Shown: positions 2,591 through 27,288 of the stretch, in pieces
Position numbering within the stretch: position 1 is the first letter of the stretch
How the letters are laid out: each line of letters begins with the position of its first letter
Virus record (IMG/VR): IMGVR_UViG_3300046507_000082
Coordinates: 1-27,288 of that record
DNA from: a virus
DNA: 27,288 nucleotides
Direction: 5' to 3' (one strand)
Notes under the pieces: generated by a model
What the model was told of the DNA's origin: nothing
Databases searched by the model: none
The model's input: only the letters and a program-made list of their open reading frames with translations
Program-made: the position numbers and the translations under genes

Positions 2591-3913
2591 CTACAGCGCG
2601 AACCGCTTCCGAGCCTGGATCGTCCGCCAACGAACCGTAGCCGTTCCAGCCCCTGATCCGATCGCATAAAGCCGCATCGACAGGAACGCGCCGCCGCCCT
2701 TCACCGTCACTGGATAGGACGGCGTTTTTAAGTAGTAGGTGCCGCCAGTCGTGGAGATCGGATTGTTGTCCAGCGGCTTCAAGTCCGTCAAATTCCAAGT
2801 GGTCGAGCCGTCGCTATATTGGAGATCCATTTGGACACCAGCAAGAACGGCGCCGCTGTCAACAACAACAACGCCAACGCCCTCCAGGAAATCCCCGATG
2901 CTGATGTTGCCTATCACGGCGTCTTGCCGAATGCGACAAATGTCGCCGGCAGCGCCGAATGTGCAGGCCATGATGCATTCATTGCCCGGAGAACCGTCCG
3001 CTGGCGTGCCAGTCGAGACAACACTAGTTTGCGTACCTCCACCGCCTGTACGGTCTACCGTCCAGCTTCCGGGGACAGTACCCGTGACGCCGAGCGAACC
3101 GGAGCCAGAGCCGCCCGATGTCGTCATGAACAGCGGATTCAGAAGCAGGTTGTTCGTGGTGATACTGGTGATTTCGTTGACGTCTGCTGGCAGATAGGGA
3201 ACGGTTGGGAAGTTAGCCGTGAAGAAGGCCGCGAGGTTGCGGCCGACGATCTCGGCACCCTTGTTGGACATATGGGTACCGGAGCCCGTGGCTTCAGCCG
3301 CATAACCTGACTTGAATCGGAGAGTGGAAGTTGTGGATGCTGCGGGGTCATGCATCTGCGACCAGAGGTCATAGATGAGGACGCCAGGCGCCGACCTTGC
3401 AAATTCACGCAGCCGCTGATTGAGATTGATGCAGGCGGCGATCTGAGCCGTGCCGAAGACCTCAGCGCCGCACTCCAGGTTGATGATGACGCGCTGGCCG
3501 CCGGCCCTTAGAAACTGCTGAGCCGCATATTGGATGTTCTGGAAGCAGATCTGTGCGACGTTAGAGGTCGTAACGGAAACACCCTGGTTAGGGCCAACCG
3601 TGTTGACGGTCGTATACCCGACGCCAGAATTGTTGACATCGTTAACACCGATCTGAATCCATAGCGTTCCAGCTCCGGAAGCGATCGTGGCCGCAAGGCG
3701 CGCAAGCATAGTGTCTGATTGATCGCCAGAAAGACCGCCGTTATAGACGACATCGAACGGCTTCTTGGCGATGGAATTGGCTATGGTGAAGTGCGTATAG
3801 CCGCTGAAACCGAAGTTGTTGCCGAGGCTCTGATAGAACCGAGCCACTCGGCTGTCGCCAAGCGAGGCCAACGCATAGATCGGCTTCAGTGCGGAAATAA
3901 TGTTGATGCTCAT
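2591..3913 (-). CDS. SGNH/GDSL-type hydrolase, probable virion-associated esterase/deacetylase (440 aa)
   Basis: The N-terminal ~230 residues show the SGNH blocks: GDS at residues 19-21 (Ser21 as nucleophile), NGGLSG near 58-63 (Gly block), GVND at 89-92 (Asn block) and THMSNKGA with His214. The Asp that usually precedes the His by three residues is not in its normal place, so the triad may be relayed differently or be a dyad. The second half is Gly/Ser/Thr-rich and strand-rich (residues ~240-440), like a beta-sandwich or carbohydrate-binding module. Phage proteins of this kind usually strip acyl groups from surface polysaccharide. There is no signal peptide, which fits assembly into virions. 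It starts 1 nt after the stop of the repeat protein and is the last late gene. A terminator lies upstream of the pair. Confidence 0.8.
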   Translation of the reverse strand: MSINIISALKPIYALASLGDSRVARFYQSLGNNFGFSGYTHFTIANSIAKKPFDVVYNGGLSGDQSDTMLARLAATIASGAGTLWIQIGVNDVNNSGVGYTTVNTVGPNQGVSVTTSNVAQICFQNIQYAAQQFLRAGGQRVIINLECGAEVFGTAQIAACINLNQRLREFARSAPGVLIYDLWSQMHDPAASTTSTLRFKSGYAAEATGSGTHMSNKGAEIVGRNLAAFFTANFPTVPYLPADVNEITSITTNNLLLNPLFMTTSGGSGSGSLGVTGTVPGSWTVDRTGGGGTQTSVVSTGTPADGSPGNECIMACTFGAAGDICRIRQDAVIGNISIGDFLEGVGVVVVDSGAVLAGVQMDLQYSDGSTTWNLTDLKPLDNNPISTTGGTYYLKTPSYPVTVKGGGAFLSMRLYAIGSGAGTATVRWRTIQARKRFAL

Positions 3914-10235: not shown

Positions 10236-10937
10236 TTATCCTCGCGGGAAAACGGGAGCGCGGAAGGCACTCTTGAGGGCGGAAAGGGCAACCGGCTTAC
10301 GCGGCGCGTAGAAGATCGGGGGCGCCTGCATGTCGGGGATCTGGGCGAATGCGGGGGGCGCTTCTGGAGCCTGCTGGGGCGGCGCGAAGACGGGGGCAGA
10401 TGGCAGTTGCGGGGTGATCGCCATGGGCGGCTGAGGGGCGCTAGGCGGGCTAGCGGGGCTTGCCTGTGCGGTCTGTGGCTGGGGGCTACTTCCGCCCATC
10501 TTCCGGTCGGCCCACGCCTGTAGCCCGCTGGCGGTCATCCCACGCAGGAACGGATTGGCCTTAACGGCGGCGTCTCCGAGGACGGATTCCACGGGCGCGT
10601 TTGGGTCCGCCTGGAGCACCTTCACTGCACCACCAGGGCCGGCGAAATGGGCGAGATAGGTCGAGCCGGGGGTTACAGGAACTCCGGCCTTTGATAGGAT
10701 GGCCTGGTTCTGGTTGGCGTAGGCTTCCGTCATCTCACGCGAAAGCTGCGGGTCGGTTTTCAGGGCCAGAAGATCGGCGTCGGACTTGCCCTGCGCCAGA
10801 TCAGGCCTAACTTGCTTGATGGTCGAGAGCCATGTGCTGTCGATGAACTGCCCGAGACCCGACGCAGACGAAGTAGGATTGGTGGCGTTAGGGTTGCCGC
10901 CGCTCTCTACGCCAATGATGGAGTCTACCAAGCCCAT
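10236..10937 (-). CDS. Virion lytic transglycosylase-like protein (233 aa)
   Basis: Residues 1-110 are a lysozyme-like SLT fold: the catalytic Glu11 in IIGVESGGNP, SASGLGQFIDSTW (23-35), and a YLAHFAGPGGAVKVL segment near 95-109. Residues 145-205 are Pro/Ala/Gln-rich and disordered. The protein ends with PVALSALKSAF and APVFPRG. There is no signal peptide, as expected for an enzyme carried in the particle that opens the peptidoglycan during DNA entry. It follows three ejection-type proteins. Its C-terminal motif is similar to that of the 523-aa ejection protein, which suggests a shared docking tag. Its ATG overlaps the ATG of a + strand gene across a CATG. Confidence 0.83.
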   Translation of the reverse strand: MGLVDSIIGVESGGNPNATNPTSSASGLGQFIDSTWLSTIKQVRPDLAQGKSDADLLALKTDPQLSREMTEAYANQNQAILSKAGVPVTPGSTYLAHFAGPGGAVKVLQADPNAPVESVLGDAAVKANPFLRGMTASGLQAWADRKMGGSSPQPQTAQASPASPPSAPQPPMAITPQLPSAPVFAPPQQAPEAPPAFAQIPDMQAPPIFYAPRKPVALSALKSAFRAPVFPRG

Positions 10938-18033: not shown

Positions 18034-19556
18034 GCGCGGAACCTGATCGACATACCAGTTTGGGCGAAGGTGGTACCGGCGGTGCCGATAGAAGTGAGCG
18101 CCGTCGTGGTCGAATTTAATTCGAGCGCATTGAAAGTATGAAAACCTAACCCAGGCGTTCCGTCGTAGAACGCGGTAATCGGCGACAAATTCGTGGAATC
18201 TGGTGAATAAATAAACCGTCCGCTTGGCGCGGTCGTTGAGTCCAAACCAATTCCAACGGCCGCCTGAGATGATGCCCCCGCTCTTATAGACGACAAAAGG
18301 ACGAGTGAAATACCGTCTTCGTCCAGCCCGCGAAGGACCGAGATTGCATAGGTTGCTTGACCATTCTGCGACCGCCATGTGTTGGCAACGGCATATGTCC
18401 AGCTCGCAGTGCTCATGCCGACAAAGCCGGAAACATCCACGCGGTTGTAGCAATTCCAGACGTTGAAGACGCCGGCAGTTCCGTTTGTCGAAACGGCGGG
18501 GAAAATGTAGTCAATCGTGGATGAACCATTGCTACCGATCGTGCCAACATAGGTCCCGCGCGAGGCTGCCGGCCCGTTGGTGATCGAGGCATTGTTCAAA
18601 TAGATGCCGTTGACTAGGACAAGAGCCGTACCGGCTGAGCGGGCTGTGGCGCTTGTCCAAGCCGGACCACGCGAAACGCGGATCGTGCCGGAGTCATTCC
18701 AGATGAACACATCGTAGTAGGACGTGGCTGCGACAGCCGCAGGCGATTTGGTCGCGTCGGTGGTGACAAGCGAGATTTCGCCGCCCGTGATCAGCGTCGG
18801 GACGAAGTTGGCACCGTCGTAAATCGGCGCGTAGCTTCCAGCATAGGCTGTGTAATAAACGGTCGTCGCACCGGCAACGCTCGTCGTCATGACCGGCGTG
18901 CCGCTAGTCAAGGTCAAACGGCCGCCAGGCAGAATTGGGATAGCAAGCGCGCCGGTTTGGCCGTTAACGGAAGTAACGCCTCCACCAGGAGACGCCCACG
19001 TCCCGTCACCACGCCAGAACGTCGAGGAAGAAGCCGCCGTGCCAGAGTTCAGATTGTTGACGGAAAGGTTCCCGGTCACGCCCGTCGAGAGCGGCAATCC
19101 TGTGAGATTTGTTGCAGTACCAGAAGCCGGCGTTCCAAGAGCGCCACCAACAAAATAGGCCGCACCCGTCCCGGCCTCGTCGGTCAATGCCGCACGCAGA
19201 TTCGCACTGTTTGGGGTGGCGAGGAATGTCGCGACACCCGCACCGAGGCCCGTAACACTACCAATAGCAGGCGTGACGGTTACGTTAGACGCAGCCGTGG
19301 CGAGGCCCTTAGCGTTGAAGGTAACCTGAACCGTCTGGGTCGCGCTGCCGAACGTTCCGACGTTCGCATTCACCGTCGCGAGCGTGGTTGCAGCGGAGCC
19401 GGGCGAGGTGGTAACGTCGCCGGTCAGTGCCGGCAACTGCGTCGTGTCAACCGAACCCGTGACTGCGTGGTCAGCGTCCCACGATGGGCCATCCACCAAC
19501 ACATTAGGGTTAGCCGCAGCGCCGGTCAGCGTTGCATGCTTGACGGTAAGTGTCAT
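18030..19556 (-). CDS. Tail fibre / tailspike-like protein (508 aa)
   Basis: The N-terminal 220 residues are typical of phage fibre shafts: [40 protein letters not shown], and [19 protein letters not shown] followed by [15 protein letters not shown]. The [15 protein letters not shown] motif is common to these shafts. From about residue 220 the protein is a strand-rich receptor-binding part with no recognised enzyme motif. The start at 19556 (ATGA overlap with the 57-aa gene) is preferred to the codon at 19568. The catalytic partner is likely the coupled SASA esterase. The Gly/Thr-rich repeats make it a candidate for recombination with other prophages. Confidence 0.82.
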
Positions 19557-19726
19557 TCGGCCGTCCAAATCTCGGATTGAATGGTCTTGCCGTCCCAGAT
19601 GCCGCCCGTCTCGCCAGTGTCGAAAATAGGCCGACGATCGAACACAAAGGGGTCAAACACGCGCACGGCCTGCGTCTCCGCAGTCCACGTCTCGCTCTGC
19701 TGCGTCTTCGGCGTCCACGTCGTCAT
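19553..19726 (-). CDS. Small tail-region protein rich in T-W-T motifs (57 aa)
   Basis: This small frame is closed by ATGA overlaps at both ends: its ATG at 19726 overlaps the adaptor's TGA, and its TGA overlaps the fibre's ATG at 19556. The sequence shows an internal repeat, [19 protein letters not shown] and, at the end, [10 protein letters not shown], with [18 protein letters not shown] between. It resembles tiny conserved proteins that precede fibre genes in other prophages, as I remember them. It is probably a virion component or fibre connector. No transmembrane segment is present. Confidence 0.7.
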
Positions 19727-21434: not shown

Positions 21435-22400
21435 TCAGGTGGGAACGGTGTTATCGAACACGCCGCCGCTCGCCTTTTCGTTGCGCGCGACCAGGACGTA
21501 CTCAGACAGCATCATGCGGCGCTCGGAGTCGCCGGTCTTCGCCAACGGCAGGTTGACCATGCTGCGTCCGTTCAAATGAGCCTGCGCCCACTTGTCCATC
21601 TGGAGTACCAGCACGTCACGGGTGCGCATGAAGCGGTTCGGAACAACCGTGAGGGTGCCGAAGTCCGATTCATAGGCCGTGACAGAGGCCACGATCTTCT
21701 GGGTCTTGGTCTCCTCGATCGGCGAAGCGCGGCCGGTGAAGGTCGAGAACGCCTGCTTGTTGCCGCCGCCGAGCATGATGGTCCCCGGCTTGCCGCCCTG
21801 GGTCCAGCACTTCTGAAGAACGCTTTTCAGACGCTGTTCCGTGAACGCGATCTGCGTGCCATCGGTACGGGTGCCCGTGCCGTCAGCCGCAGCCGGATCA
21901 GCGGCGCCGCCGGCCGTGCCCTTGTCGGTGTTGGTCTTGATCCAGGACAGGATCGAGGCCGAGACACGCGCGGTTGCGTCAGCGCCAGTGTTCTTCGCCT
22001 GGTTCGAGCCGACCATCTGGGATTCGATGTCGGTTTTCAGTTCCAGACCGGCCAACATGGCCTGGTTGGCGAGTTCGTTCGGAACGCCGGCAGTCTGAAC
22101 TGCCTGCTGGGTGCCGGTCACGCGAACCGTCTTGGTCGAGATCTGGCAGATATTGCCGAGACGAACGCGGGGAGTGACGGCCTTGGTGGTGGCGTCGTCG
22201 CCTTCGAGCTGGGCGTTCGACGTGGAGGCAGCGGCGAGAGCCTGGGTCTGCCATTCGTGGTTGACGCCGGTTGCCTTCTCACGATCGATCGACGACATGA
22301 ACGGCGTATCGGTCGGAGAAATGCGGTAGATGATGTTGGAGAGGTCTTCGCGGTTGCCGATCGCCTCATAGGTGGCGAGGGTATTGCTGGGAAGTGCCAT
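21435..22400 (-). CDS. Major capsid protein (SU10/DUF5309 type, 321 aa)
   Basis: The N-terminus contains the hallmark GNREDLSNIIYRISPTDTPF of the DUF5309/SU10-like capsid group (residues ~15-34). HEWQTQALAAAS, then NICQISTKTVRVTGTQQAVQ and LKTDIESQMVGSN follow. The C-terminus has VPNRFMRTRDVLVLQMDKWA. These proteins take the HK97 fold and form the icosahedral shell. The 321-residue length is usual. AAGGA lies 6 nt before the ATG, the strongest ribosome site in the late region, fitting high expression. A scaffold gene precedes it by 9 nt and a hairpin follows. Confidence 0.88.
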   Translation of the reverse strand: MALPSNTLATYEAIGNREDLSNIIYRISPTDTPFMSSIDREKATGVNHEWQTQALAAASTSNAQLEGDDATTKAVTPRVRLGNICQISTKTVRVTGTQQAVQTAGVPNELANQAMLAGLELKTDIESQMVGSNQAKNTGADATARVSASILSWIKTNTDKGTAGGAADPAAADGTGTRTDGTQIAFTEQRLKSVLQKCWTQGGKPGTIMLGGGNKQAFSTFTGRASPIEETKTQKIVASVTAYESDFGTLTVVPNRFMRTRDVLVLQMDKWAQAHLNGRSMVNLPLAKTGDSERRMMLSEYVLVARNEKASGGVFDNTVPT

Positions 22401-22409
22401 TGTCGTTCC

Positions 22410-23477
22410 TTATGATGCCCGGCGAGCGGACTGTAACGCGTACAGTTCTTCCGCCTCCTTCATGGTTAGCTCGGGCTTGCGGTTGAGGGCTTGGAGTCGC
22501 TCGGATGCGTCGGAGCCTGCGGGGCGTGACGTTCCGGGCTTCTGAACGGGTGGAAGAGGCTTTGCGGCAAGAGCCTTCGGGGCCTTCTGGATGTCCCGCA
22601 GCTTCACGGCATCGGCGAGGAGTCGCTGCACGCGATGGTCGAAGATCGAAAGCTTCGTCTTGCCATTCGCGAGGTCGGCGAGTTCGCTGTCCTTGAAACC
22701 GAGTTCCGGGAGCAATTCAGTTGCGACGCGCTTGGTCAGCACTTCGCCCTTGGCCTTGTCCGCAAGATCGGGAATAAACTCCGCCGCCTTTGCATTCTCC
22801 TCCTGGACATGCTTCGCCCAGTTGGATTGCTCGGCGCCGGCTCTCTCCGCGCTCACACGATCGCTTTCCGCTTTTGCGGCCTGCAAGCGCATCTGCTGCA
22901 CCTGCCATGCCTGGAAGCGGAAGGGGTCTTCAGCCTGAAGTTTCACCACATCATCCATCGTCTTGATGTCGGCGAAGGCGTTCTGCTGTGCGCTCTGGAG
23001 TTCCTGCATCAAGGCCGGTAGACTGGCCTCGTACTGTTGCCTTACCTTTTCCGCCGCTTCGCGCTCGGCCTGCACGGCTTTGCGTTGTTCAGCGATTTCG
23101 TTCTGACTGCGGCGAAATGCCGTGTCCCGCTCCTGTTCGCGAGTGTGCAGGTATTCCTGCGTCTCACGAGGCAAGGATTGGAAACGTTCCTTTTCGGCCT
23201 GAGTCCAAGACCTCGGCGGCTCGATGGGCGGCTGTTCGGCCGGTTCGGCTGCGTCGGGTTCTTCGCTGGGGACCGTTTCCGGGTCAGCGTTGGCTTGCGC
23301 CAATTCGGGTTCTGCGGTCGCGATTTCCGCGCTCTCGGCAGGCTGTTGTTTGCGCTTCTCCTGAAGCTCGGAGAAATAGGCAGCGGCTTCATTGACGGAA
23401 TTGAAGCTCTCGGGAGCGTCTGCGGGGAGGTCAACGGAAGACATCCCCTCGACGGGCGAGGCGGTTTCGGTCGTCAT
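22410..23477 (-). CDS. Scaffold-like protein, acidic and coiled-coil-rich (355 aa)
   Basis: The N-terminal third is acidic and Pro/Glu-rich (ATAEPELAQANADPETVPSE). It is followed by long predicted coiled coils (residues ~100-165, QAEKERFQSLPRETQEYLHT and AVQAEREAAEKVRQQYEASL). The C-terminal portion is basic with a final helix (PELTMKEAEELYALQSARRA). An acidic start, a coiled-coil middle and a basic C-terminal helix for capsid binding are typical of scaffolding proteins, and the position just before the capsid gene agrees. AAAGGA precedes the ATG by 6-7 nt. No protease motif is seen. Confidence 0.78.
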   Translation of the reverse strand: MTTETASPVEGMSSVDLPADAPESFNSVNEAAAYFSELQEKRKQQPAESAEIATAEPELAQANADPETVPSEEPDAAEPAEQPPIEPPRSWTQAEKERFQSLPRETQEYLHTREQERDTAFRRSQNEIAEQRKAVQAEREAAEKVRQQYEASLPALMQELQSAQQNAFADIKTMDDVVKLQAEDPFRFQAWQVQQMRLQAAKAESDRVSAERAGAEQSNWAKHVQEENAKAAEFIPDLADKAKGEVLTKRVATELLPELGFKDSELADLANGKTKLSIFDHRVQRLLADAVKLRDIQKAPKALAAKPLPPVQKPGTSRPAGSDASERLQALNRKPELTMKEAEELYALQSARRAS

Positions 23478-23492
23478 AAATTGTCCTTTTGG

Positions 23493-23792
23493 TTAAACTT
23501 CGTGCCAGTGCTTCTTGCGCTCGGCAGCGTCGGCGAGGGCCTTCAATTCGGCCGCCGCCAGGTTTCCGTTGCTCACAACGGAATTCAGATGATCGCGGAC
23601 CTTGCCCACGATGTTGATTGCGAGGAACAGCTTCTCACGGGCCGCCGTATCGTCGATCGTGGTTGCGCGCCACGCCTTGATATAAGCCTGCTCCAGCCCC
23701 GTGAATGCTTCATCAAGCAGCTCGTTTCCGAGCAACGCCTGCGCTCTGGCGGCCTTCGCTGCGGCCTTGGAGAGGGCGTCTTCGTCGATCAC
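23493..23792 (-). CDS. Small helical phage protein between portal and scaffold (99 aa, GTG start)
   Basis: The protein is nearly all helix: ALLGNELLDEAFTGLEQAYI, then WRATTIDDTAAREKLFLAIN and VGKVRDHLNSVVSNGNLAAA. The A-W-R-A-T-T...R-E-K-L...V-G-K-V-R-D-H-L pattern recurs in small proteins at the same locus of many podoviral prophages, with no known function. The GTG at 23792 overlaps the portal stop (GTGA). It might be an assembly factor for portal or scaffold. Confidence 0.72.
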   Translation of the reverse strand: MIDEDALSKAAAKAARAQALLGNELLDEAFTGLEQAYIKAWRATTIDDTAAREKLFLAINIVGKVRDHLNSVVSNGNLAAAELKALADAAERKKHWHEV

Positions 23793-25513
23793 TTCGGAGC
23801 CTTCGGTTTGTTCGCGGCTTTCTCAGCCAGCACCAGCTTCTGTTCATGCGACTGCTGGTCGTGTGCCATCTGCATGTCGTGCTTGTGCGCGTCTGCAACA
23901 ACACCTATCACGGTTTCCGCGACCTTTGCATGGTGCTGCTGCTGATCGTTGCGCGCCTTGCGCTCGGCCTCAACCGCCGCAATATGCGCGTCGATAATCT
24001 TCAGCTTGGCATCCATCTCAGCTTTGAACTGAGCCAACTGGGCCGCATCCTTGGCCTTCTGCTGGTCGAGCTGAGCCTTGAGCTGCAATTCCTGCTGGTC
24101 GTTCTGAGCCTGCGCCTGGATCGCCAACACCTTGGGATCAGGCGGCGGCTGGACCGGAGGGTGCAACGGCTGACCCGTCTGCGGGTCTTTCGCGCTCGGA
24201 TCGTTGAAGAACTTATCGGGGTTCTTGTGCCCCATGATCTTGGTCAGTTCGGCAGCCGTGTTATACAGCTCCTTGTCGCCGACCAGATTAGACTTGCCGC
24301 CGGCAAGCATTTCCTTCTGGACGTTGGCGATCGCCATCGTCTGGGCAAACTGCTGAGCCTTGCCACCGTTGCCGAGGCCGACATTGATCGTCATATCGTT
24401 GCGAGTTTTCCACTGCCTCGGATCGACAGCAATCCACTTGTTGCGAAGACGAACGGTCTGCGCTTCCTGCCCGTGCTTCCTGATCGTGCCATGCAGCAAC
24501 GAGAAGATATCCCGCACGCCTTCCGACATGATGCGGGCAATCAGCTTCATCCGCATCTGCGAGGCTGAAAACACCTGCGCAACAGCGGTAGCCGTCTGGT
24601 TCTGAAGTGCGTTGGCGTCAATGCCCTGCCCTTGCCGGGTTACGCCGGTTCGGACTTCAAGCTCGGCATCGAGGTATTGCAGCATGGGATAGACGCTGCC
24701 GGTGATGTCGGGAACGACCTGCCAGTTAAGTCCACCTGCGGTCTTAGTGCGGACAACGCCACCTGGGCGGCTGACCAGTAGATCATCCAGAGTATTAGGA
24801 CCGGCATTCTGTTCGGCCACCTCGACGCGCGGATTATTGTGCAGGTACAGGTTATCAAGCGCGCCACGCTTCAGCGCCGTCTTCTCACGCTGCGCCGGCA
24901 TCACCAGATCAGCAATCGACCGGCCAAAGAACCGATGCGTGATGGGAACAGGCGTGGTCGCAGCGAACGGAATCGCGTCGAACGGCGTAATCGCGGGCTT
25001 GCCGTCCCGCTTCAGGATCTGGCCGCGCTCGCCACCCGTGACGACCTGGTACAGACAAGGGCGCCCGTTGCCCTCGTAATCCATGCGGATATAGTGCTCA
25101 GTAATCCTGACCAAGCGCGCGGCTGAATTGGTGCTGTCAGCCCCGATCGTGAAATAGTGCTCCTGAACGCTGTCACGCGTCAGTGTCTCGACTTCGGTGT
25201 TACCCTCGTAGCTCGATAGGCCCTTGACGGCTTCCTTATCAAAGCCCTCGGAGATCAGTTGGGCTTCAGTCTTGGTGACAACCTCGTGGAAGCAATAGTT
25301 GCAGTCAGCGATGCTGCGGGCGCCGCGCTCGATACCGAATTCCTCGGGAGGAACGCCCATCACGCGGGCTTGGGCAAGCTTCTTGGTGGTGATTACGGTG
25401 ACATCGTGCGTCACGGGTGCCGGCTGCGCGGGCATTGGAGGAGATTGCATCGCGGGCGCCGGCATCTGAGGCTGTGGAGCACCAAGCATCGCTGGCGGCG
25501 TCATCGCGTCCAT
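23789..25513 (-). CDS. Portal protein, C-terminal piece (574 aa)
   Basis: A Pro/Met-rich leader (residues ~3-33, TPPAMLGAPQPQMPAPAMQS) precedes VTHDVTVITTKK, VPPEEFGIERGARSIADCNY and CFHEVVTK. These belong to the middle (wing) of SU10/P22-like podoviral portals. The stem and clip follow (for example FFGRSIADLVMPAQREKTAL, LDNLYLHNNPRVEVAEQ), and RQGQGIDANALQNQTATAVA, the signature of this family. The last 130 residues form a charged coiled coil, normal for podoviral portals (barrel). The N-terminal portal domain is missing and is found in the separate gene at 25665. The ATG overlaps the stop of the 51-aa ORF (TGATG), with GAGG 10 nt upstream. Confidence 0.82.
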   Translation of the reverse strand: MDAMTPPAMLGAPQPQMPAPAMQSPPMPAQPAPVTHDVTVITTKKLAQARVMGVPPEEFGIERGARSIADCNYCFHEVVTKTEAQLISEGFDKEAVKGLSSYEGNTEVETLTRDSVQEHYFTIGADSTNSAARLVRITEHYIRMDYEGNGRPCLYQVVTGGERGQILKRDGKPAITPFDAIPFAATTPVPITHRFFGRSIADLVMPAQREKTALKRGALDNLYLHNNPRVEVAEQNAGPNTLDDLLVSRPGGVVRTKTAGGLNWQVVPDITGSVYPMLQYLDAELEVRTGVTRQGQGIDANALQNQTATAVAQVFSASQMRMKLIARIMSEGVRDIFSLLHGTIRKHGQEAQTVRLRNKWIAVDPRQWKTRNDMTINVGLGNGGKAQQFAQTMAIANVQKEMLAGGKSNLVGDKELYNTAAELTKIMGHKNPDKFFNDPSAKDPQTGQPLHPPVQPPPDPKVLAIQAQAQNDQQELQLKAQLDQQKAKDAAQLAQFKAEMDAKLKIIDAHIAAVEAERKARNDQQQHHAKVAETVIGVVADAHKHDMQMAHDQQSHEQKLVLAEKAANKPKAPK

Positions 25514-25668
25514 CAGCTAGTCGCCTCGCTCGGCTCTTTCGCATCTTCCTTCGGTTCAGGAAGCGGCCCCTCCAGATTGGGGTGATTATCAGGCTGCAAA
25601 TATTTAAGCCTAACGATCCTTCCATTTAAGCGGTCTTCAAGGCCACGCGTCCGATAGAAATACGTCAC
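25513..25668 (-). CDS. 51-aa ORF between the two portal pieces (GTG start)
   Basis: The GTG at 25668 overlaps the TGA of the portal N-terminal piece (GTGA) and has a clear GGAGG seven nt upstream. The TGA overlaps the ATG of the portal C-terminal piece (TGATG). The product starts VTYFYRTRGLEDRLNGRIVR, continues with LKYLQPDNHPNLEG and ends in an acidic PKEDAKEPSEATS. The N-terminal piece ends in a similar acidic tail with EATS; this similarity comes partly from a shared GAGGCGAC that serves as ribosome site for the next start. No family is recognised. It could be a small inserted gene or a bridging part of the portal. Confidence 0.62.
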   Translation of the reverse strand: MTYFYRTRGLEDRLNGRIVRLKYLQPDNHPNLEGPLPEPKEDAKEPSEATS

Positions 25669-26249
25669 GACGTCGCCTCCGTCTCTTCCTTCTTCTCGTC
25701 AGCTTCCGGCTCATTGTTGACCGTGTGTTCCACGATCTTCATGGCCCCATCAGACTCGGCCACGTCCTGCACCAGCCTCATGAACTGCTCCTCGGACAGG
25801 TCGTAATAGGTCTCGCGCTGCTCTTCCTCGCGCTCCTCCCACCACACCTTGACGATGCCGACCTTGGACAACAGCGCGTCCTTGACAAAGCCGTACAACA
25901 CCATGAAACCAGGATTGTTCTGCATGAACACATGGTTCACGTAGTCGGTTTCCTGCTGCGCTGCTTCCTCATCCTCAGGACCGACAGGCTCGAACCGGAC
26001 AACCTCATCCGACCCAGCAAAGATGTCCATCAACGAAGGCATCAGGCCTTCAATGGTGTCTGCAACGTCCGTAGAGACGGCCCTGGAGCGCCCTTCCTGC
26101 GCCGGCATGTCCTGTGACATGTCGCCGAGATAATAGGCCATAGCCTTCGCGCGGTCTTCCATGAGCTGGGCGGCGGAGATCGCAGCAAGCGCATTGGCCC
26201 GCTCAGAACCGAGCATGGCCTGCACGTCGAGCGTAGACATCTTAGCCAT
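25665..26249 (-). CDS. Portal protein, N-terminal piece (194 aa)
   Basis: The sequence carries the start of a podoviral portal: RAKAMAYYLGDMSQDMPAQE, GRSRAVSTDVADTIEGLMPS and LMDIFAGSDEVVRFEPVGPE. It continues with QQETDYVNHVFMQNNPGFMV, LYGFVKDALLSKVGIVKVWW and an acidic end (EADEKKEETEATS). In related phages the same segments continue in one frame into VPPEEF and the stem region, which here lie in the next-but-one gene. The combined length of the two pieces (768 aa) suits a single portal. The ATG overlaps the terminase stop (TGATG). Confidence 0.8.
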   Translation of the reverse strand: MAKMSTLDVQAMLGSERANALAAISAAQLMEDRAKAMAYYLGDMSQDMPAQEGRSRAVSTDVADTIEGLMPSLMDIFAGSDEVVRFEPVGPEDEEAAQQETDYVNHVFMQNNPGFMVLYGFVKDALLSKVGIVKVWWEEREEEQRETYYDLSEEQFMRLVQDVAESDGAMKIVEHTVNNEPEADEKKEETEATS

Positions 26250-27288
26250 CAGGCCACGCCCATCTGCGGATAGTTGATGGCGCGATTAAAGCCCGTGTTC
26301 ACAATCTTCGTATCCAATGTCATGGCGAGGTAGCGGAACGCGTCAGCGGCATGTGAAGTCCAGTCATGAACCGGACGCGGCTTCAGCGCTTGCAGCTTGT
26401 CGTCGTATTCGGCGCGGTACAGCTTCAAGGCATCGATACCGCGTGAGCATTTCTTGGCGTCGAACCAGCAACGAGGTATGACCGTGCGAACGGCGTTGAT
26501 GCCGTCCTCGACACGGTGCATTGACGCGACGGTCAGATTCTTCAGGCCCAAGCTTTCGAGAACCTCAAGCCTGGATTTGCCAGTCCCCAATTCCTTCGCT
26601 TGGGCGTCATGCGGGACGATGTGACCAGCGTAGAGATACGGGCGCTGATTGATCTCGCGGACGTAATGTCCAAGGTCAACACCCGACGCCTCGTAATAAT
26701 CCACAATGTGAATTTCACGCCCAATGACCTGCGCAAACCAGATTGCGGTACTATCGCGTATTCCAAGGTCCCAAGCTGTGTAAACCTGAGCAGTAGGCTC
26801 ATGCGGCACCCCTGTAATGCGCGACGGCTTGTCGTTCTCAGCCTGGTTCATCAGTCGCCCGTAGTAGGCACCGATAACCGCAGCATCGAAGCTGCACTCG
26901 TATTCCTGAGCAAACTGCTCTTCCGACATCTGCGTGCGTTGCAGCGCAAGCTCGTCCGAAGAAGTGACACCAGTCTCGGACGCCTTCAGGATCAGCCTGA
27001 ACCAACCCGGCAACTCAGCGCCGGTATCGTCCCGGTCTATCTTGTAGAACCAGTCCCTGCCCTTGGGCGTTCCGATGAAGGTTGCCCATCCCTGATAATC
27101 TGACAGAGTTGGCAATATAACTTCGGGCCAAGCCCTTGGATCGATCTGGGCGGGCTCGTCAAGAATGACGCCATCGTTATAGCCGCCTCGGAGCCGATCG
27201 TAATTGTCTGCGCCGTATAGTCGAACACGAGCACGGTTAGGATACTCAACCGTCAGCTCCGACTCGCTGATTTGAATGCCAGGAATCG
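26249..27288 (-). CDS. terL: Terminase large subunit, C-terminal part, 5'-truncated by window edge
   Basis: The frame is open to the right edge, so the start and Walker A region are outside. Near 27156-27179 it reads DGVILDEP, the Walker B with catalytic Asp-Glu. FIGTPKGRDWFYK (near 27040-27080) is the coupling motif. The nuclease domain begins at YTAWDLGIRDSTAIW with the first catalytic Asp and ends with HAADAFRYLAM (second Asp). The enzyme cuts concatemers and pumps DNA into the head through the portal. The TTG at 27115 is an artefactual start because the ATPase motifs continue upstream. The gene is coupled to the portal piece by TGATG. Confidence 0.9.
   Translation of the reverse strand, partial: IPGIQISESELTVEYPNRARVRLYGADNYDRLRGGYNDGVILDEPAQIDPRAWPEVILPTLSDYQGWATFIGTPKGRDWFYKIDRDDTGAELPGWFRLILKASETGVTSSDELALQRTQMSEEQFAQEYECSFDAAVIGAYYGRLMNQAENDKPSRITGVPHEPTAQVYTAWDLGIRDSTAIWFAQVIGREIHIVDYYEASGVDLGHYVREINQRPYLYAGHIVPHDAQAKELGTGKSRLEVLESLGLKNLTVASMHRVEDGINAVRTVIPRCWFDAKKCSRGIDALKLYRAEYDDKLQALKPRPVHDWTSHAADAFRYLAMTLDTKIVNTGFNRAINYPQMGVA

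Follow-up and report, generated by a model that had tools for sequence, protein, structure and literature searches.

A portal gene split in a Bradyrhizobium-phage clade probably encodes a portal subunit of two polypeptides

Introduction

DNA enters the virus head through a ring, the portal, which is among the most conserved machines of tailed phages. In the SU10_portal family (PF23899), the members with solved structures, namely the portals of PaP3 (7SXK), Pa223 (9NWM) and SU10 (7Z44), are single polypeptides. The splitting of phage genes has been described for other proteins: in phage Aeh1, nrdA is split by mobE, and the T4 topoisomerase gene is split by mobA (PMC2988022). In T4, the start of mobE overlaps the stop of nrdA, which suggests translational coupling (PMC2988022). 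In phi29-like phages of Gram-negative bacteria, the tail knob protein is split, and this split has been linked to a fragment that encodes Ig-like domains (PMC11476376). A search of open-access full texts for split or two-gene portals and for papers on Bradyrhizobium portals returned no description of such a portal.

Here we analyse the portal locus on the minus strand of an IMG/VR virus record of 27,288 bases, hereafter the window. On the basis of sequence comparison, we propose that the portal of this lineage very probably consists of two polypeptides that arose by ancestral gene fission, are started separately and fold into one protomer.

Results

The portal locus of the window

The minus-strand order of terminase, portal N-piece, 51-aa ORF, portal C-piece, 99-aa ORF, scaffold and SU10-type capsid (Table 1) contains the gene order expected for SU10_portal phages (terminase, portal, scaffold, SU10-type capsid). 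The single-polypeptide form usual for this family is absent from the window, in which the portal occupies two ORFs in different frames that together make a single pass over the 593-position profile. The 5' end of the terminase ORF lies beyond the contig edge, and this ORF overlaps the start of the portal N-piece. An earlier note, made from the sequence alone, had described a portal in two pieces with a 51-aa ORF between them, and the coordinates, the GTGA and TGATG overlaps and the GGAGG and GAGG sites were all confirmed. The comparison with homologues that the note had suggested shows that the SU10, PaP3 and Pa223 portals are continuous, with the window N-piece matching the PaP3 and Pa223 portals and the C-piece matching all three. 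No RNA family was matched over positions 23600-27288, and the DNA of the junction region had no match among phages. Elsewhere in the window, positions 2591-3913 (minus strand) encode a phage lipase-like protein (phrog_6102).

Table 1. Features of the window, ORFs occupying the portal junction of relatives and examples of proteins with the shared C-terminal tag
Feature	Locus	Coordinates	Strand	Evidence or remark
Terminase large subunit, C-terminal part	Window	26249..27286	-	PHROG phrog_2 terminase and phrog_2472
Portal N-piece, 194 aa	Window	25665..26249	-	PF23899 positions 3-171, E 1e-54; PaP3/Pa223 portal match
GTGA, overlap of N-piece stop and 51-aa ORF start	Window	25665..25668	-	Sequence; GGAGG 7 nt before GTG
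51-aa orphan ORF, GTG start, in the portal junction slot	Window	25513..25668	-	No family match
TGATG, overlap of 51-aa ORF stop and C-piece start	Window	25511..25515	-	Sequence; GAGG 10 nt before ATG
Portal C-piece, 574 aa	Window	23789..25513	-	PF23899 positions 163-591, E 8e-129; PaP3 7SXK, Pa223 9NWM, SU10 7Z44
99-aa ORF overlapping the C-piece end, function unknown	Window	23493..23792	-	phrog_8161, E 1.5e-5
Head scaffolding protein	Window	22410..23477	-	phrog_3927, E 3e-18
SU10-type major capsid protein	Window	21435..22400	-	PF17236, E 3e-93
Slot ORF, 32 aa	L030			One base short of overlap
Slot ORF, 48 aa	L181
Slot ORF, 53 aa	L166
Slot ORF, 61 aa	L090	9816-10001		Weakly like Acb2/Tad1 (anti-CBASS) hairpin, E 1.8e-4, below the Pfam cut-off
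Slot ORFs, 66 and 67 aa	L035, L203			Related to each other
Slot ORF, 108 aa	L106			Matches uncharacterised phage families
Slot ORF, 155 aa	L144
Slot ORF, 158 aa, HNH endonuclease	L146	1089-1565		PF13392, E 1.4e-7; phrog_1872, E 4e-32; overlaps at both ends
Tagged protein	L041	7184-8338
Tagged protein	L085	6130-7239
Tagged protein	L094	8190-9341
Tagged protein	L109	8466-9500
Tagged protein	L114	8835-9947

The split across relatives

Nearly all of the 80 viral contigs nearest to the window by N-piece end this ORF at ~190 aa, with the C-piece in an ORF of its own. In 157 loci with both pieces, a sample of viral contigs found by N-piece or C-piece, isolate genomes and phages that favours near relatives, the portal was split with a short link in 67, split with an insert in 78 and continuous in 12 (145 of 157 split). 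The spacing between the pieces ranges from a 1-nt overlap up to ~8 kb; 49 of the 106 distinct split loci have no insert and 57 have ~0.1-8 kb between the pieces.

A quick maximum-likelihood tree of 116 distinct portals contains a Bradyrhizobium-phage clade of 106 rows, of which 48 are split without an insert, 57 are split with an insert and one (L098) is continuous; the split point is identical in 105 of the 106. The continuous portal of L098, a row that comes from a metagenome-assembled genome, shows that the split is not essential. The continuous portals outside the clade are those of the sister rows L108, L211 and L212, of the Microcystis phage L117 and of L121, L122, L124, L127 and L128, and the other Hyphomicrobiales portals in the tree are continuous. 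Beside L108, outside the main clade and among continuous relatives, L213 carries a split portal (L213:5001-7294) that is possibly an independent fission; alternatively, the sister group may have been re-fused.

Genome searches gave a similar distribution. A portal match was found in 54 of 266 Bradyrhizobium genomes, and in at least 35 of these 54 the N and C parts matched separately. Among 397 genomes from the order, the 11 near-full-length matches were continuous and four matches were split, all of which recurred in the Bradyrhizobium search; in 385 genomes of the class, all 12 near-full-length matches were continuous, and the sole split belonged to the Bradyrhizobium query genome. The split is thus the rule within the Bradyrhizobium-phage clade, whereas the gene is continuous in wider relatives; it is ancestral to the clade and is not an error or a product of decay. 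The earlier note had considered a portal of two polypeptides unusual for this phage group, which holds in comparison with continuous portals of the SU10/PaP3/Pa223 type and other alphaproteobacterial portals but not within the window's own clade. To judge by the relatives of the window, its host is presumably Bradyrhizobium-like.

Position of the cut

On the PaP3 portal, the match of the C-piece starts at residue 180 and that of the N-piece ends at ~191; the cut corresponds to PaP3 residue ~180, directly before the KKKR strand of PaP3 and Pa223. In Pa223, KKKR stands at a place structurally similar to that of the P22 trigger-loop motif; in P22, the matching KRRR belongs to the wing 'trigger loop' (226-277), which is mobile between procapsid and virion, and altered KRRR beside the hairpin harms ring assembly (PMC13386823). 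The cut is located at the tip of the wing-domain hairpin that matches this loop and, because changes to KRRR harm the P22 ring, a cut at the hairpin is not obviously harmless. In an AlphaFold model of the continuous L098 portal, which is weak overall (mean pLDDT 66, pTM 0.35) but reaches 77-86 in the blocks holding the strands that flank the joint, these strands span 170-178 and 198-217 and the joint falls in the loop 179-197. A fold search with this model placed the Pa223, PaP3 and SU10 portals on top with low TM-scores, so that it adds little beyond the sequence match.

Occupants of the junction and the origin of the split

The 51-aa ORF of the window has no Pfam or PHROG match, no relatives in viral contigs or plasmids and only chance-level matches in 150 genomes. 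Because shuffled bases leave its frame open in ~9% of cases (~3% for the frame meeting the C-piece start), the ORF by itself argues little; it gains weight from nine other ORFs in relatives, which lie in the slot with the same end-to-end junctions. Smaller inserts often consist of one ORF that fills the slot end to end, and ~10 such small coupled ORFs, including the 51-aa ORF, are mostly unrelated to one another (Table 1). Well supported branches of the tree show at least 13 changes between presence and absence of an insert, and the portal junction is a spot that has repeatedly gained unrelated extra genes in viruses of the soil bacterium Bradyrhizobium.

The nearest relative, L002, is the sister of the window portal (support 99) and has no insert, which makes a recent gain of the 51-aa ORF, probably after the split, the simplest reading. 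The earlier note had offered, as one possibility, that a small insertion broke the locus; this places the events in the wrong order, as the split occurs without an insert in L002 and in 49 of the 106 distinct split loci. The end of the 51-aa ORF repeats the EATS-coding stretch (GAGGCGAC) that closes the N-piece, which suggests that junction sequence was duplicated upon its arrival. The ORF is presumably translated.

With regard to the origin of the split, the insertion of a homing endonuclease gene may have divided the portal, after which most lineages would have lost or replaced the endonuclease. Such a scenario bears on the origin alone and agrees with a portal of two polypeptides. As is typical of such fissions, there are homologues without the split, and the two fragments are both conserved; mobE and mobA provide a precedent for the splitting of functionally critical phage genes (PMC2988022), and the HNH endonuclease gene of L146 fills the slot precisely, overlapping the portal piece on either side. 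However, one HNH endonuclease among ~60 inserts is also expected of a passive slot, and an endonuclease between the fragments is absent from the window (Pfam and PHROG searches) and is present in one relative, L146. L146 moreover stands on a recent branch next to an insert-free sister, so that its endonuclease was not itself the cause of the split. We consider a homing origin conceivable but rather unlikely.

Translation of and selection on the two halves

Among the 49 distinct junctions without an insert, 38 have a 1-nt overlap (TGATG or TAATG), nine have a 4-nt overlap and two are spaced; start and stop thus overlap by 1 or 4 nt in 47 of the 49, and a Shine-Dalgarno-like tetramer precedes the C-piece start in 37. 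Pairwise dN/dS, a simple Nei-Gojobori estimate by script, had medians of 0.11 (N-piece) and 0.20 (C-piece) for insert-free pairs and of 0.07 (N-piece) and 0.18 (C-piece) for pairs with links >400 bp. As these values are low even with links >400 bp, both halves are under purifying selection though they lie kilobases apart.

Programmed -1 frameshifting or other recoding at the junction would join the frames into one portal polypeptide. At insert-free junctions, the C frame indeed lies at -1 with respect to the N frame and overlaps it, as at known frameshift sites. However, four loci without an insert have a C frame that opens no more than 4 nt ahead of the N-piece stop, which leaves too little room for a slip and refutes frameshifting as a general mechanism. 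A slippery heptamer occurs in only 1 of the 47 overlaps, and the window would need two separate shifts. The same follows from the 57 of 106 distinct split loci with ~0.1-8 kb between the pieces, because purifying selection persists on both halves even where foreign genes separate them by kilobases. We therefore regard frameshifting as highly improbable. The junction features fit termination-reinitiation and, as far as sequence can tell, exclude frameshifting as the general route. The reading of the earlier note that the portal parts are separately translated appears well supported by the clade-wide split, the overlaps and the selection on both halves.

Decay, assembly and a particle-releasing relative

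That the portal gene has decayed or been mis-assembled, through sequencing errors or in a dying prophage, is hardly credible. C-pieces are truncated or interrupted in L115, L282 and L299, and some chromosomal copies carry partial duplicates of both pieces. However, the same split occurs in ~100 independent viral contigs and isolate genomes, including the published phage ppBeUSDA76-2, and the junction overlaps are conserved. Selection is not relaxed (median dN/dS of 0.07-0.20 across relatives), neighbouring ORFs are not broken and, in the window, the ORFs for scaffold, capsid and tail proteins are open, as is that for the terminase up to the contig edge. The earlier note had named frame-restoring indels or a plainly decayed prophage as outcomes that would count against its reading; instead, many independent assemblies share this layout, and the relatives are not plainly decayed. 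Post-translational ligation of the pieces, through a split intein or a comparable form of protein splicing, would explain how function is kept with separate genes but has a negligible probability, since the N-part of an intein has ~100 residues, the N-pieces extend only ~5-30 residues past the last shared strand, the C-pieces have a short Pro-rich leader that leaves no room and no splicing family was matched (Pfam, PHROG). An intron at the portal junction was ruled out, as the inserts shrink to zero length.

In ppBeUSDA76-2 (OP596614), the N-piece (19031-19585) meets the C-piece (from 19585) at a TGATG junction with no insert. The published account describes this prophage as one of two USDA 76 regions enriched in virus-fraction reads, reports both siphophages and podophages by electron microscopy of USDA 76, and presents ppBeUSDA76-2 as a podophage whose particles are released spontaneously, more rarely than those of the co-resident siphophage of the same strain (PMC10127595). 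The virus-fraction reads and the podophage images indicate that split-portal particles are made and carry their own DNA, which speaks to release only. The C-piece of this phage (L116; OP596614.1:19585-21246), which is most of its portal, is unannotated in GenBank; such a portal can therefore be missed by annotation.

Larger inserts and a shared C-terminal tag

Many of the larger inserts encode, directly before the C-piece, proteins with unrelated N-termini, a Pro-rich middle and a common C-terminus near AGGLLGLIQDYMRNN. This C-terminal tag (consensus AGGLLGLIQDYxRNN) is common to 49 proteins with diverse N-terminal domains, many of which degrade cell walls; most of the 49 lie within the portal junction. 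In the 44 tagged proteins scanned, PHROGs identified transglycosylases, M23 endopeptidases and endolysins, Pfam found M23 in four and PADLOC found no defence proteins. In seven whole genomes, a model of the tag matched only in or near the portal-bearing prophage, and it had no match in three of the seven (L097, L107 and L111), in which the portal is split with little or no insert. The window contains no larger tagged cargo; its transglycosylase at 10236-10937 (minus strand) belongs to phrog_4067, which some of the tagged cargo matches as well, but lacks the tag itself.

In L109, an ORF with an Ivy lysozyme-inhibitor domain (L109:7446-8261, E 4.6e-15) lies just upstream of a tagged transglycosylase-like protein, and the two are possibly an effector and immunity pair; the domain begins at residue 154 of the ORF, so that the true start may be internal. 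A partner ORF precedes the tagged ORF with a 4-nt overlap in L055, L064, L078, L085, L099 and L114. Incomplete additional copies of the portal N-piece or C-piece lie around the inserts of L083, L085, L093, L101 and L102, as if cassettes had been added by recombination. Tagged ORFs are also found upstream of the N-piece, near or inside the terminase region (L009:3308-4249, L014:3825-4796 and L074:3257-4183), which is possibly a second insertion site. It seems to us doubtful that the split is put to use, with the junction as a cargo slot whose AGGLLGLIQDYMRNN-tagged proteins would be recruited to the head or the two-chain portal for delivery together with the particle.

Discussion

Our analysis suggests that, in an ancestor of the clade that infects Bradyrhizobium, the portal gene underwent fission at the tip of the wing-domain beta-hairpin and gave rise to two adjacent genes on a shared message, with each piece translated from its own start. 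At insert-free junctions, the ribosome that finishes the N-piece would probably restart at the overlapping start of the C-piece by termination-reinitiation. The two pieces would then join non-covalently across the hairpin into one protomer, and a ring of 12 protomers would probably contain 24 chains. As the junction would now be an ordinary gene boundary, extra genes could enter it without destroying the portal; the 51-aa ORF may be a recent occupant of this slot that has kept start and stop overlaps on both sides.

A subunit apparently made of two chains and cut at the loop that moves during P22 maturation would offer a natural way to test which covalent links the ring requires. A two-part portal would allow separate expression and mixing of its parts, and the locus illustrates how a structural gene can turn into an insertion slot for accessory genes.

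Compared with known systems, the junctions resemble translationally coupled overlapping genes in their 1- and 4-nt overlaps (TGATG, GTGA and TTGA), mostly with Shine-Dalgarno-like sequences upstream; they differ in that the clade of the window couples two halves of what is elsewhere one protein. The two pieces resemble the SU10_portal family in that they cover its profile once and in order, between the terminase and the scaffold and capsid genes, whereas here two genes encode the protein, with the cut in its wing hairpin. As in the nrdA gene of Aeh1 and the topoisomerase gene of T4, a functionally critical phage gene lies in separate coding regions (PMC2988022); in contrast to those splits, the present one affects a structural ring protein, is clade-wide, mostly lacks an endonuclease and offers a slot used by many unrelated genes. 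The split tail knob of phi29-like phages is likewise a structural protein encoded as two genes for its N- and C-terminal parts, but it is a tail knob and not a portal (PMC11476376).
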